Shown one piece after another: positions 52,419-61,368 of a DNA stretch of 64,000 bases. This DNA comes from Arabidopsis thaliana (lineage: Eukaryota > Streptophyta > Magnoliopsida > Brassicales > Brassicaceae): NCBI RefSeq assembly GCF_000001735.4, contig NC_003070.9, positions 26,397,971-26,461,970 on the forward strand, given 5' to 3'. The notes below the pieces were generated by a model. The model was not told the origin of the DNA. It worked only from the letters and a program-made list of their open reading frames with translations, and ran no database searches. The position numbers and the translations under genes were made by a program. Each line of letters begins with the position of its first letter. The first letter of the stretch is position 1.

Positions 52419-53754
52419 ATGGGATTAAACGAGCAACAAAATGTTCCAAGTCAGAGGAAGATCATAGTTTTTATAGTCTTAGCTTTTATACCAATAGCTC
52501 TGTTTCGACTCTGTTTTAATAATCCATTCTCCTCCATTAAAGACACCTCTCTTCAAGACTCTGCAGCTAACGTTGTGATCACTAGCTTCTCTTCATCTTC
52601 TCAAGGTAATTATTCAACTTCTTCAATATTGTGTATATCCAAAAACTGAATGGATTTTTTTAACTTTAGGGTTGTTTTCTAAATCTGCAGAAGAAGAAAG
52701 CCAAGAGAGTTTTGATCATATACAAGATGAACCTTTATGCGATTATACGCAAGGGAACTGGGTCAGAGACGAGATTGGTCCACTCTACAATGGTTCAACA
52801 TGTGGAACAATCAAGGATGGTCAGAATTGTTTCCGCCATGGTAGACCTGATTCCGGTTATCTTTACTGGAAATGGAAACCAAACGAATGCGATATACCGA
52901 GATTCGACTCGAACCGGTTTCTTGATCTTATGAGAGATAAGCATCTAGCTTTTATCGGTGATTCCATGGCTAGAAATCAGCTTGAGTCTCTTTTATGCTT
53001 GCTCTCTACCGTCTCTAGCCCTGATCTCGTCTATAGAAACGGAGAAGACAATAAATTCAGAAGATGGCGTTTCGAGTCACACAACGTCACTGTCTCGGTT
53101 TACTGGTCCCCGTTTTTGGTGGCCGGTTTAGAGAAATCGGGAAACTTGGACCACAATGTATTGCACATAGACCGCGTGGATGAGAGATGGGGCAATGATT
53201 TAGAACGTTTTGATACGGTCGTAGTCTCTGTGGGACATTGGTTTCTGCATCCAGCGGTTTACTACGAGTCTGGTTCGGTTTTGGGATGTCATTCTTGTGA
53301 AACAAGTAACTGTACCGAGGTAGGGTTTTATGATGTATTTAGAAAAGCGATAAGAACAACGTTGAGAGCGGTTGCTGGAAGTGGTCGTGAGGTGATCTTG
53401 ACGACATTTTCGCCATCACATTTTGAAGGACGGCCTTGGGACAGTCTCGGCGCATGTAACATGACCAAGCCGTACGAAGGGAAGGTTTTAGAAGGTCTGG
53501 ACTTGGACATGCGCAAAATAGAAATTGAGGAATATACGGCGGCTGCGGCTGAGGTGAGGTTAGAGGTGTTGGACGTGACGGCTATGTCGGTACTGAGACC
53601 AGACGGACATCCTGGTCCGTACATGTACGCGGACCCGTTCAAGAACGGTGTACCGGAGAGAATTCCTAATGATTGTTTGCATTGGTGTCTACCTGGTCCT
53701 GTCGACACGTGGAACGAGATCATGATCGAGATGTTGCGGCGATGGAAGGTTTAA
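52419..53754 (+). CDS. AXY4: xyloglucan O-acetyltransferase, TBL family
   Basis: Exons 52419-52605 and 52691-53754 encode 416 residues of a Golgi type II protein. A short cytosolic tail leads to the helix at 14-32 (KIIVFIVLAFIPIALFRL). The TBL domain begins CDYTQGNWV, the catalytic GDS motif is IGDSMARNQ (152-154) and the C-terminal DxxH is DCLHW (Asp390, His393), giving the Ser-Asp-His triad. AXY4/TBL27 puts O-acetyl groups on galactosyl residues of xyloglucan side chains. The upstream open frame lacks an ATG before 52419. A second acceptor 21 bp upstream (exon from 52670) also keeps the frame and would add seven residues (LFSKSAE region). The 416-residue form matches what I recall for At1g70230. 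Confidence 0.95.
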
Positions 53755-55004: not shown

Positions 55005-58000
55005 ATGACAACGGCGATGATGATATTCGCGGTTTTGGTTACAGTGGTGGAGGTGGAAGCACAGACTGAGTGCGTGAGCAAGATAGTTCCCTGCTTCAGG
55101 TTCTTGAACACGACAACAAAGCCGTCGACGGATTGTTGCAACTCGATCAAGGAAGCGATGGAGAAAGATTTTAGCTGTCTCTGCACCATCTACAACACTC
55201 CTGGTTTACTCGCTCAGTTCAACATCACTACAGATCAAGCTCTCGGTCTCAACCTTCGATGTGGAGTCAACACTGATCTATCCGCTTGTTCCGGTACTTT
55301 AATTCTCCAAGATCTTCGACCGTTGCAATTATGAATCTGAGATTTGCAATATGATAGGTGTTTTGTTTAATTTACAGGTTCTGGTGCTCCACCACCACCA
55401 CCTGATCTATTTCCTCCACCTTCAGCTCAAATGCTCCCTCCACCTCCAGGTATATAAACCAAACTCTTCACCTACGTACTCCTTGCTAGTTTATAATTGA
55501 GTTTGGTAATATGTTATTTAATTATTAAGTTTCTGTGTTATAGCAAAAGGTGCTTGTAAGAGTCGTAACTTTAGTTTGGGCAGTTTTCAACAGTCACAAC
55601 ATTTAGTTTGGTCAGATATGTACTTAAGATCAGTATGTAAGTGTGTGTGTCTTGTCTTAATAAAACAACAAGTTTCAGATTCAATAAAGAGTTCTTTCGT
55701 TTACTTTGTTTTGTTATAGGCTTCTCTTTGTGCTTCCCACTAGGCCCTAGAATCAATAAAGCTCTGATATATATATATATTCATTATTAGTAATGTTTTG
55801 TTTAATTATCAGCTTCGTCACCTGCACCTCCATCGCCACCTTCTTCATCCCGACCACGTCCATTGCCACGTCCATGTATAAACCAAACTCTTCACCTACT
55901 CTTTATATTATACGTTTAAAATCTCTGCAATATATCTTGAATTTTTTTTTGTTATATGTAGCAATGTCAAGGAGCTTTACGATAGAAAACAAATGCCAAT
56001 ACACCATATGGCCTGCAACCTACGGCTATAGGAGATCACTAGAAACAACCGGTTTTGTTCTTGAGAAAGGAGAGACGCGTACCATCAAAGCGCCGTCATC
56101 ATGGATAGGTCGTTTCTGGGGTAGGACACTCTGCTCCACCAACTCAACAGGGGGTTTCTCATGTGCCACGGGAGACTGCACCTCCGGAAAAATCAAGTGC
56201 CTCGGTATCCCCATAGATCCAACAACAGTGGTCGAGTTTAACCTCGCTTCTTACGGTGTCGACTATTATGTCGTCAACGTCTTCAATGGTTACAACCTCC
56301 CTTTGCTTGTGACCCCCGAGAACAAAAACTGCAGAAGCATTGAATGCGTTATTGACATGAACGAGACATGTCCCTCGGAGCTAATGGTGAACAGTAGTGG
56401 CCTTGGATCGCACCATCCAATAGCCTGCATGACCACTTGTCAGAGATACCAGTTGCCAGAGCTTTGCTGTATCGGACTCTCTTCTGGGGTGGTCGTACCA
56501 CCGGGAATATGCAAGCGGACGATCTACTCGCGGACATTCAATAACGTGTGCCCAAGCGCTTATAGTTACGCCTACGACGTTGATAACAGCAGTTTCACTT
56601 GTCCAAACTTCTCCAACTTTGTCATCACGTTTTGTCCGTCTAGCTCAACGGTCCCAGAGGCAGGAAACATCAATAGCTCAACGGTCCCAGAGGCAGGAAA
56701 CATCAAAACTGGAACAGAAGCAAAAGGTAAGTTTTTCTTTTCTTTGACCTACGGGAGAATGTATCATTTTATTTTTTGTTAATCGAAATAATTTCTGTAA
56801 TACATTTGCAGGAAATATTCCATTGAGGTTAAAACTCATACTTGGTACACTTTAGAAGAAACCTGGTGAAATTACTCTCAACTATCTTACTCATTTTTGA
56901 TGTATATAACACCTAAGTTTTAAGGCTTATTCTCTTGTAGGAGTTTCATCAGTATTGGCTACAATGATCATTATTGTGATTGTGGGAAAGGTTAGAGCAA
57001 ATAATATGAGAAAGAGTGATTTGAATGAGAAGAACATGGAAGCAGTGGTAATGTTGAAACGATTTAGTTATGTACAAGTCAAGAAGATGACAAAATCATT
57101 TGAGAATGTTCTTGGGAAAGGGGGATTTGGAACTGTCTATAAAGGGAAGTTACCTGATGGCAGCCGAGATGTTGCAGTGAAGATCTTGAAGGAGTCAAAC
57201 GAGGATGGAGAAGACTTCATCAATGAAATAGCTAGCATGAGTAGGACATCTCATGCTAATATCGTTTCTCTACTTGGATTCTGTTATGAAGGGAGGAAGA
57301 AAGCTATAATTTACGAGTTGATGCCGAATGGATCCCTCGACAAGTTCATCTCCAAGAATATGTCGGCGAAGATGGAATGGAAAACGTTATACAACATTGC
57401 GGTAGGTGTGTCTCATGGCCTAGAATACTTGCATAGCCATTGTGTATCAAGGATTGTACATTTCGATATAAAGCCACAGAACATACTCATAGATGGAGAC
57501 TTATGCCCTAAGATTTCGGATTTCGGTCTTGCTAAGCTTTGCAAAAATAATGAAAGCATCATTTCAATGCTACATGCAAGAGGCACCATAGGGTACATTG
57601 CTCCAGAAGTGTTCTCCCAGAATTTTGGAGGAGTTTCTCATAAGTCTGATGTGTATAGTTATGGAATGGTGGTTCTTGAGATGATTGGAGCAAGGAACAT
57701 AGGAAGAGCTCAAAATGCTGGATCCAGTAATACTTCAATGTACTTTCCAGATTGGATTTATAAAGATCTTGAGAAAGGAGAAATCATGAGTTTTTTGGCA
57801 GATCAAATAACCGAAGAAGAAGATGAGAAGATAGTAAAGAAAATGGTATTGGTGGGTCTGTGGTGTATTCAGACCAATCCATATGATCGTCCACCAATGA
57901 GCAAAGTTGTTGAAATGTTAGAGGGAAGTCTAGAGGCTCTCCAGATTCCACCTAAGCCTCTTTTATGTTTACCCGCAATAACAGCTCCAATAACAGTTGA

Positions 58001-58118
58001 TGAAGACATTCAAGAGACTTCAAGCTTCTTGAAACCAAGTCAAGATACTTCATATTATTCCGAACAAATAGTTCAAGATATTGTAGAAGAGAATCAAGAT
58101 AGCTCAAGATCTTCCTAA
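55005..58118 (+). CDS. receptor-like kinase with LTP, proline-rich and thaumatin modules
   Basis: Six exons (55005-55293, 55378-55449, 55813-55875, 55962-56726, 56812-56844, 56941-58118) give 799 residues. Signal peptide about 1-19. An eight-cysteine LTP/2S-albumin domain (C..C..CC..CLC..C..C) spans about 20-97, a Pro-rich hinge 98-141, and a thaumatin-like PR5 domain about 143-370. A duplicated [11 protein letters not shown] stalk precedes the helix at about 410-425. The kinase has GKGGFG from 466, Lys488, HFD (571-573, so non-RD) and DFG (591-593). The thaumatin-kinase part resembles PR5K/LRK10L-type receptors; the LTP module in front is unusual. All five introns are phase 1. Intron 2 holds three AATAAA signals that could end a short LTP-only product. 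I recall At1g70250. Ligand unknown. Confidence 0.9.
56642..56707 (+). repeat. 33-bp tandem duplication in the receptor stalk
   Basis: Units at 56642-56674 and 56675-56707 differ only at the last base and encode [11 protein letters not shown] and [11 protein letters not shown] in frame, between the thaumatin domain and the membrane helix. Confidence 0.95.
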
Positions 58119-59096: not shown

Positions 59097-61368
59097 TCAT
59101 ACAGGACTTTCTTCCTGGTTAATAAGTAATGGAACTTTGTATTCATCTTCATCGCGATGATGAATAGTTTTGATGGATTTTCTTTCTTCATTTGAACTTT
59201 GTTTTTCTTCGCTTTCCTTCAATTGTCCCCAAGACACTGTGAAATATCCCACACCAGCTATGGCTGCTCCTAACACACTGCACCCATATGCACCAACATA
59301 TATAGCTTAATACTCATGCGTGATAATATGCTAATTAGTATTTAGAATATTGATTAATGAATTTGTTCACGGACCTGCCGTAGTGAAGACTGTTGACGAA
59401 GAAGCTGGTACCAAAGAGTGTTGCCCAAAAGATACCAAAGGGTTTGAACAATGGCACGTAATAAGGTCCTTTCATTTGGGTGCACTTTACGTGTACACTT
59501 GTTCGTATTACACTTCCGAATGTTCCCTGTTTTTTACACATCATTATAGTCACCAATATTAGAAACGTTAATTACAATCGATGGCTTTATGTATTTGATC
59601 TTTTAAAACTCAATCAATTATAAGTAAACTGAACATGTAGTCTTGAGTCTTGATCTAGCGTAATCGTTATATCACTACTTGGATTCAAATGATCAAATCT
59701 AGTGAAATGCATGTTATTAACAAAAAAAAAAAGTAGATTTAATTACCGTGGCGATAATGAGATAAAGATCGAAGTTAGGTTGGATCTTCCATGCACTAAG
59801 GTCTCTTTCCATAAATAACGAGAATAGTAGACATTGGATCGTCCCGACTATGCTGTAAAACGAAGCCACTTTCATCACATGTGGATACTTTTTTACCGTC
59901 CCTGTCTGCCAAAGACATGCAAAAACAAGAAATATATATTAACCTCAAAGGTAACTAACATGCATAAGGATAACGATGGTTTCCGTAATGGAAGATTGAG
60001 TACCTGAACAACATTGAACAGGGAGACAGAAAAAACAGCGACGGCCAAAAAGATACAGCCGAGAAACCAATTGTCGGGGAGGTTGTAGTAGACCAAAAGT
60101 TTAGGGACTGATTTAAGAAAACGATTTGGGGAAGCAGACGAAGCTGGTCTTATGAATGGACCTTTGTACAACTCTTCAACAAAAGCTCCGCTTAACGAGA
60201 CTATTGTTCCCATCAGTTTAGCCCTCGTACTCGTGTTTCTCCAATCCAATTTGCTCCTTCTACACATGCATGTATATTTATTATATATATATTTGAAAAC
60301 ATTCATATAATTTATGTGGAGAGTTTGACATGGTGATGAGAGATGTCTTACCCGAGAATAATAGAGAGCAGGAAGGAGAAGGACGGGATTTGCAATCCCA
60401 TTGCACATACTACTATTGGTGAGCTGAAGCGTAGTCCCACAAATGCCAAGTTTTGGAACATAAATATCCTTCACATATTTAAAATGTTACAATATAATCA
60501 GTGCATGTGCATATGCATGAATAACATTTTATGTACGTTCAATGCATGCAAATGCGTGTGTTCTCACAAGTGAGTAAACTATTATATGAACCAACATATA
60601 CGTCACACAAGTTTTTATTTCTATTTTAACACAAATAAAACATGGTGTGTGGTATACGCCGCTCACATAGAAACGTCAGGATGTGGAAAATAATAGAACA
60701 TATTAGGCCTAGTTGTTTATTTTATAACCGAGTAAACGGCACGCGGTTTTGTATCTTTTTGAATATGCATGACGTCGCAAATCCATGCCATAGAATATTC
60801 ATCCAACCAATTAGTGGTTGATACATGTACGTATAGATTTTCGAAACATGGACCTCATCTTTTGATTTGGTTTTAGGACCACGAAGTTACTGTTATTGCA
60901 AAATAATATTAGTACGTAAGAATCTGGTCTGCGACTCATATAATCAATATGATAACTTCCTAAGAAAACATTATTTAATAAAGATAGATTATGTACCCAC
61001 CCGGTGAAACCTAGAAAGAAAACGCGAACGAGGAGTGGCCAAGAGAAGATAGATTGTTCTGTTCTGCAAGTATAAAATATCATCATACAAACCAAAGATC
61101 AGAAAAGAACCAAGATTGATTAGTACTAACATATATACTATGATATAAAATACTGAACGTGGACCGACCTCTCATTCCTGTGAAATAAGAAAGAAAATGG
61201 AAGAAGAAGAATAGATCCAAAAGCGTTTGTGTAAACAACGAACACAAAAGGACTCATCCCTCCCGTCAACGCCGTTTTCGCCATTATCGTAAGAGCAATC
61301 GTGCATGCTTCCATTATAGCCATTGCTACAAAGGGTACCAACTCATCTCTTCTAACCTTCACCTCCAT
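59097..61368 (-). CDS. UMAMIT36: UMAMIT (nodulin MtN21/EamA-type) transporter
   Basis: Seven exons (61368-61169, 61063-61001, 60468-60352, 60259-60004, 59905-59747, 59526-59375, 59277-59097) give 375 residues with about ten membrane helices arranged as two EamA repeats, as in amino-acid exporters of the UMAMIT family. Typical pieces include FVVYTNAFGSILLLPFSFLF, IVVCAMGLQIPSFSFLLSII and LFGTSFFVNSLHYG. The cytosolic tail ends KVPLLINQEE. Exon 3 is a near-perfect helix pair; exon 6 and 7 junction falls in the last helix pair. I recall At1g70260, which was also named RTP1, an ER-located negative regulator of resistance to Phytophthora. The transported substrate is not shown by the sequence. Confidence 0.9.

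Follow-up and report, generated by a model that had tools for sequence, protein, structure and literature searches.

Gene structure and identity

The 64,000-nt window analyzed here, C1:26397971-26461970 of the 119.66-Mb Arabidopsis thaliana genome, carries on its plus strand (positions 55005-58118) a gene for a receptor kinase in which a lipid transfer protein (LTP) domain precedes a thaumatin-like domain. Six exons of 289, 72, 63, 765, 33 and 1178 nt are separated by five introns of 84, 363, 86, 85 and 96 nt, all with GT-AG ends and all in phase 1, and the joined frame is open for 799 codons up to the stop at 58118. The initial annotation had proposed five phase-1 introns and symmetric internal exons of 72, 63, 765 and 33 nt; coordinates, splice ends and reading frame agree with it in every number. 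Exon 1 (55005-55293) encodes the signal peptide and an eight-cysteine LTP_2 domain (residues 1-96), and intron 1 starts 4 nt after the codon for the eighth cysteine. Exons 2 (55378-55449) and 3 (55813-55875), each flanked by phase-1 introns, encode proline-rich sequence. Exon 4 (55962-56726) comprises the thaumatin-like domain (Pfam match at 55988-56638) and a juxtamembrane linker, exon 5 (56812-56844) the start of the membrane span, again with phases 1-1, and exon 6 (56941-58118) the rest of the span and the kinase (Pfam match at 57099-57920). As judged from the sequence, this exon model is more than splice-site guessing, because introns 1, 4 and 5 and the intron before the thaumatin exon have same-phase counterparts in hand-modelled relatives from the same genome. 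The six exons very probably belong to a single mRNA.

Three intact thaumatin exons are located within about 2 kb of a PR5K-type kinase in this genome, on C5, C4 and C1, which fits the number of published PR5K genes. From this fit and from chromosomal position, we take the window gene to be At1g70250 (AtPR5K3), the locus at C5:15.293-15.296 Mb to be AtPR5K1 (At5g38280) and that at C4:10.087-10.090 Mb to be AtPR5K2 (At4g18250), the chromosome and family agreeing in the last two cases.

Three Arabidopsis PR5K genes, At5g38280, At4g18250 and At1g70250 (AtPR5K3), are described in PMC6822995, which also states, citing reviews, that kinase and LTP-type domains can be part of osmotin- and thaumatin-like proteins. 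In a survey of LTP genes, At1g70250 was listed as AtLtpVIII.1, an intronless LTP gene encoding 19+90 amino acids (PMC2277411; Boutrot et al., 2008). Reading from 55005 through the exon 1 donor to the next stop gives exactly 109 residues, the same as 19+90. The annotation "Putative receptor serine/threonine kinase, protease inhibitor/seed storage/LTP family protein" is given in PMC4762390 for the best Arabidopsis match of a potato transcript. No passage treating the gene as an LTP-bearing PR5K was found in the accessible parts of these papers, though this annotation line names both parts. Likewise, no account of the origin of the fusion was found in the parts of the open-licence literature accessible to us, and searches of open-licence papers for the order LTP, thaumatin, kinase led nowhere. 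The locus and its parts are already known, and the probable fusion history can be read from the sequence.

Encoded protein

Pfam analysis of the 799-residue protein returned, in order, LTP_2 (residues 10-95, E = 1.2e-16), Thaumatin (151-367, E = 7.8e-61) and PK_Tyr_Ser-Thr (461-734, E = 1.9e-51), which bears out the claim that LTP-type and thaumatin-type domains are combined in one receptor ectodomain. The eight-cysteine pattern of the LTP part is complete (C23, C30, C44, C45, C58, C60, C86 and C95), and this part carries a signal peptide, as judged by hydropathy and homology rather than by a signal-peptide program. The thaumatin part contains 16 cysteines. A simple 19-residue hydropathy window gave residues 399-427 as the sole hydrophobic stretch, likely to be the membrane span. 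The kinase contains the motifs VAVK, HFD (in place of HRD) and DFG, is 70% identical to the kinases of PR5K1 and PR5K2, both of which also have HFD, and belongs to the same receptor-type Ser/Thr subfamily. Kinase activity of PR5K1 and PR5K2 has been reported (PMC6822995). Once the leader is cleaved, the LTP domain would be followed by some 45 residues of proline-rich stalk, the thaumatin domain, the membrane span and the kinase.

The best solved relative of the LTP domain by sequence is DIR1 (E = 8e-05). A single-sequence model of this domain reached a pLDDT of 78.7, and the 12 best Foldseek matches to it were all nonspecific LTPs (nsLTPs), every one with E > 0.1; some of the 12 are identified as nsLTPs by their allergen name. 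Lipid binding or transfer by the LTP domain is suggested at the level of sequence and predicted fold only. The single-sequence fold of the thaumatin exon had a pLDDT of only 32.

The linker between the thaumatin domain and the membrane span is encoded in part by two perfect in-frame tandem repeats of 33 nt (56641-56706, plus strand). The identity of the two copies suggests a recent event and possible length variation among accessions.

Origin of the LTP and proline-rich exons

A genome search with exon 1 yielded 17 matches, including itself. The next best, with 68% identity, was C1:23252372, followed by matches at 39% and lower. This locus, which we take to be At1g62790 by its position, is an LTPG-type gene with exons of 307, 48 and 95 nt and phases 1,1, encoding a signal peptide with the eight-cysteine motif (8CM), a proline-rich middle part and a glycosylphosphatidylinositol (GPI)-type tail, respectively. 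Its 48-nt second exon is the counterpart of exon 2 of the window gene. Three further LTPG-type genes modelled by hand also have phases 1,1, so that the pattern holds in all four. The first donor is located 4 nt behind the eighth-cysteine codon in both the window gene and C1:23252372, versus 13 nt in the other three. Between the LTP exon and its LTPG copy, Ka/Ks is 0.36 (0.19-0.64).

The similarity to C1:23252372 extends into the introns. The first 34 nt of its intron 2 align with the start of window intron 3 with a score of 26.0 (30/34 nt identical) and, with gaps, with the start of window intron 2 with a score of 20.5. Among the 10,456 GT sites compared, from both strands of the window and from the comparison loci numbered L057 and up with the exception of L065 and L066, the only others scoring above 13.5 were 55870 (24.0, overlapping) and 55858 (14.0), both beside the intron 3 donor. 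An exact 23-nt repeat (55453-55475 and 55877-55899) is common to the starts of introns 2 and 3. Compared with each other, the ends of introns 1 and 2 reach 16.0, and the best of the 11,485 other AG sites reaches 15.5, a small margin because T-rich ends resemble one another. In their bodies, exons 2 and 3 show only a loose resemblance, and the evidence sits in the splice ends. From this sequence pattern, the likeliest reading is that exon 3 arose by tandem duplication of exon 2 together with its splice ends. The first copy of the duplicated unit (55360-55475, plus strand) comprises the end of intron 1, exon 2 and the start of intron 2; the second, aligned to it (55795-55903, plus strand), comprises the end of intron 2, exon 3 and the start of intron 3. 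The outer limits of both are approximate. Two dispersed repeats are located between the copies, in intron 2: an inserted element at 55484-55688, 86% identical to C5:10339990 and C5:10315681, and a second, short one at 55717-55769.

Origin of the thaumatin and kinase exons

PR5K1 and PR5K2 each consist of signal-peptide, thaumatin, linker, 33-nt and kinase exons, with intron phases 1,2,1,1. Exon 5 of the window gene is equal in length to their 33-nt exons. A stand-alone thaumatin-like protein (TLP) gene at C1:6945850, presumably At1g20030 by its position, has phases 1,2. The window gene lacks the phase-2 intron, its thaumatin domain and linker being encoded by one exon. This intron follows the thaumatin exon in PR5K1, PR5K2 and the TLP gene of locus L059, and by parsimony it was probably lost here rather than gained elsewhere. 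The all-phase-1 pattern, linked in the initial annotation to exon shuffling, is therefore partly due to an absent intron.

Related kinases without a thaumatin domain were inspected by eye at four loci (L005, L008, L063 and L064). At the same place before the membrane span, a small exon can be made out in L005 and, at L064, in two of three genes, and L008 has an open frame there; these are readings by eye, short of full gene models.

The possibility that PR5K2 has two thaumatin domains was rejected: the upstream thaumatin exon at C4:10.091 Mb terminates in a stop of its own and is taken to belong to another gene. Between this stand-alone TLP gene and PR5K2, a short, decayed thaumatin-like start was seen by eye (positions 3960-3890 of L058, minus strand), suggesting repeated duplication in that region. 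Thaumatin fragments are also found beside PR5K1, at C5:15291826-15292065 and C5:15290947-15291093, the second with a stop; they probably represent a decayed PR5K or TLP copy.

The probable fusion joint and its age

Intron 3 (55876-55961), whose 3' end precedes the PR5K-type thaumatin exon, begins with the LTPG-like sequence described above, and the local alignment reaches 52 nt. Exon 4 is one codon shorter at its start than its counterparts in PR5K1 and the TLP gene, which fits a remade acceptor. There is good reason to place the joint between the two parental genes in this intron. In the proposed history, the 5' part of an LTPG-type gene, with its signal peptide, eight-cysteine domain, proline-rich exon and presumably its promoter, would have been joined to a PR5K-type gene, the GPI-signal exon of the former and the signal-peptide exon of the latter being lost. 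The frame would have been kept because both parental introns are of phase 1 at the joint. Exon 3 would then have been added by tandem duplication of exon 2, and the phase-2 intron behind the thaumatin exon would have disappeared. The pattern is thus accounted for by a single fusion in intron 3, the duplication of one exon and the loss of one intron. The equal phases therefore reflect the inheritance of introns 1, 4 and 5, the copying of one of introns 2 and 3, and the joining of intron 3, not five independent events. Overall, the gene probably encodes one plasma-membrane receptor kinase of the PR5K class that acquired, through an LTPG/PR5K fusion, an additional LTP domain at its N-terminus, carried by a proline-rich stalk.

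The combination of LTP and receptor kinase was seen once among the matches examined: one of the 17 LTP matches has a scored kinase match within 43 kb, the 103 scored kinase matches being an incomplete list drawn from 1,384 candidates.

Ks between the LTP exon and the LTPG copy is 0.55 (0.36-0.85), which corresponds approximately to the age of Brassicaceae and gives an upper bound for the age of the fusion. For the kinase, Ks is 0.62 against PR5K2 and 0.67 against PR5K1; for the thaumatin domain, it is 0.90 against PR5K1 and 1.52 against PR5K2. For an orthologue of At1g62790, a survey of cabbage nsLTPs (PMC6089208) gives two introns, of which the first is placed at 4 nt, as it is in the window gene. 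The survey is not among the papers found to mention At1g70250, which says little, as multi-domain proteins may have been excluded.

Duplication of the whole genome or of a segment as the source of the LTP copy was weakly rejected on the basis of two neighbouring frames. These are a PC-Esterase (TBL-like) exon identified by Pfam at 52900-53751 and an exon without a Pfam family at 59097-59306, which is presumably transporter-like. Neither has a match near C1:23.25 Mb, and the nearest C1 matches on that side lie about 0.9 and 1.1 Mb away from it.

Alternative interpretations

Several observations weigh against a single gene formed by this fusion. The PR5K side of the joint is not visible directly: past the first 34-52 nt of intron 3, a comparison with eight candidate introns gave nothing better than chance, apart from one marginal case, the TLP intron of L059, with a score reached by 9 of 300 shuffles (eight tries, uncorrected). 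Promoter homology was not found, the 1,000 nt upstream of the gene giving no match on the plus strand to the LTPG-type locus at E <= 0.05. PMC2277411 assigns the LTP part to type VIII, alongside one rice and wheat sequences, which would suggest an old origin. That study had set aside 31 GPI-anchored LTPs, and the closest LTPG relative is absent from the type VIII comparison because such proteins were discarded beforehand. The pr5k3-1 mutant resembled the wild type in growth and drought tests (PMC6822995).

Further points of this kind come from the region between exons 1 and 4, where two genes could be read in place of one: the first for a small secreted LTP, ending within intron 1 or 2 or reading through it, and the second a PR5K gene that starts at ATG 55793 or 55874 with its own hydrophobic leader (55793-56782, plus strand). 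The unspliced frame is open from 55760, contains both ATGs and encodes hydrophobic residues that run into exon 4; positions 55778-55816 are weakly similar to the signal peptide of PR5K1 (E = 0.014), and a scan picks out three candidate first exons, all short and followed by a phase-1 donor. Intron 2 contains three AATAAA motifs (55659, 55683 and 55755), two of them within or beside the inserted repeats, that could serve as poly(A) sites, and the curated intronless AtLtpVIII.1 (PMC2277411) has the length of the exon 1 read-through product. However, the donor of exon 1 has the position found in the closest LTPG-type gene and the phase found in all four modelled, and exons 2 and 3 have LTPG-like splice ends and are proline-rich in the fused frame. 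The GPI exon of the LTPG gene has no match better than E = 1.1 within 55294-56000. The hydrophobic leader is encoded by T-rich intron sequence, which yields F, L, I and V by composition. PR5K1 and PR5K2 use a separate signal-peptide exon with a phase-1 intron, and no clear separate exon of that kind is seen in the window gene. Two genes at this locus are improbable.

That the five phase-1 introns and the internal exons of 72, 63, 765 and 33 nt could reflect shuffling of five independent symmetric modules, as the initial annotation implied, is very unlikely and is largely refuted by the exon order common to the relatives. Neighbouring exons share their sources, exons 1-2 being of LTPG type and exons 4-6 of PR5K type; exon 3 copies exon 2; PR5K1, PR5K2 and the TLP of L059 keep a phase-2 intron behind the thaumatin exon; and an excess of phase-1 introns is general in genes for proteins with signal peptides (PMC1626468). 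What stands of the shuffling proposal is that the fused introns were both of phase 1 and the frame was kept; the assembly of five modules exon by exon is not supported. Alternatively, in a single gene, the contribution of the LTP part might be limited to the leader, perhaps with the promoter, and the domain as such might be idle. A fusion that replaces the signal-peptide exon needs nothing beyond a leader, there is no known ligand, and the reported tests of pr5k3-1 revealed no phenotype (PMC6822995). All eight cysteines are kept, however, and Ka/Ks against the LTPG copy is 0.36 (0.19-0.64), a value that averages both branches and perhaps includes time before the fusion. An idle LTP domain seems improbable.

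Acidic cleft and possible function

Two aspartates of the acidic cleft of the thaumatin domain are replaced by V and N in the window gene, while the cleft R and E are kept. The two columns, set by alignment to the cherry protein, are acidic in 16/20 and 17/20 near-complete thaumatin matches, with the window gene counted among the 20; these were drawn from 34 matches after exclusion of 14 shorter fragments, stops being masked. By osmotin numbering, these columns probably belong to the "REDDD" motif. PR5K2 and the neighbouring stand-alone TLP (thaumatin exons L030 and L031) have also lost both aspartates, with all 16 cysteines kept, whereas PR5K1 retains them. In this respect, the window gene and PR5K2 depart from the general statement that acidic-cleft residues are conserved in TLP-kinases (PMC3048497). 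An intact cleft is a usual trait of these kinases, not a class-defining one; PR5K2 lacks it too. Since the two aspartates are replaced, simple glucan binding by the thaumatin domain, as suggested initially, is doubtful.

It can be proposed that the LTP domain binds a hydrophobic ligand or a lipid-loaded partner at the membrane-wall interface and that the thaumatin domain, because its acidic cleft is degraded, acts as a non-catalytic spacer or a protein-binding surface. Ligand binding would then change receptor assembly and lead to signalling by the non-RD kinase. This mechanism as a whole is tentative. Under the accessions presumed for them, both the probable LTP parent and the nearest stand-alone TLP are listed as GPI-anchored, and At1g62790 is reported to be pathogen-induced. 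A lipid-responsive receptor thus appears the likeliest use of the protein; ligand and output are conjectural. A more far-reaching proposal is that a single intron-to-intron fusion turned a GPI-anchored lipid-binding protein into a receptor-kinase sensor, with LTP-type regulation retained and the thaumatin domain as a cleft-less spacer, and that polyadenylation in intron 2 may also release soluble LTP from the same promoter. This is speculative and rather unlikely.

Comparison with related genes

The gene is a well-marked case of a plant receptor gaining a new sensor, in that each parent still has a close relative in this genome, the joint can be narrowed to a single intron of 86 nt and the two introns that were joined are of equal phase. 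If the single mRNA is true, it corrects the printed reading of the LTP exon as a separate intronless gene, while the cleft comparison qualifies the printed view of acidic clefts as conserved across TLP-kinases. With this gene it could also be tested directly whether the ligand-binding part of a receptor can be an LTP domain.

On the LTP side, C1:23252372 shares with the window gene the signal peptide, the 8CM (68% identity), the first donor 4 nt behind the eighth-cysteine codon, the proline-rich exon 2 and the start of intron 2, but it ends with a GPI-type tail exon and has neither thaumatin nor kinase domains. At1g62790 is listed as a GPI-anchored LTPL (PMC6726743) and, from expression-database data, is reported to respond to fungi and P. 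syringae by induction, in which it ranks second to LTPg5 (PMC7084707). Like exon 4, the thaumatin exon of the stand-alone TLP gene C1:6945850 starts with MSRSF, and a phase-1 intron follows the signal peptide; it differs in having a phase-2 intron and a tail in place of the kinase and an intact acidic cleft. At1g20030 is called a PR5K-like GPI protein in PMC6726743.

On the receptor side, AtPR5K1 has the same thaumatin domain (57% identity), 33-nt exon, membrane span and HFD kinase (70%), but lacks the LTP domain and proline-rich stalk, has its own signal-peptide exon and an extra phase-2 intron, and keeps the cleft aspartates. AtPR5K2 shares the exon layout behind the thaumatin exon, the 70% kinase identity and the loss of the cleft acids, and differs in the absence of the LTP domain and the presence of the phase-2 intron. 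A role in drought and abscisic acid (ABA) signalling has been published for AtPR5K2, while none was seen for pr5k3-1 (PMC6822995).

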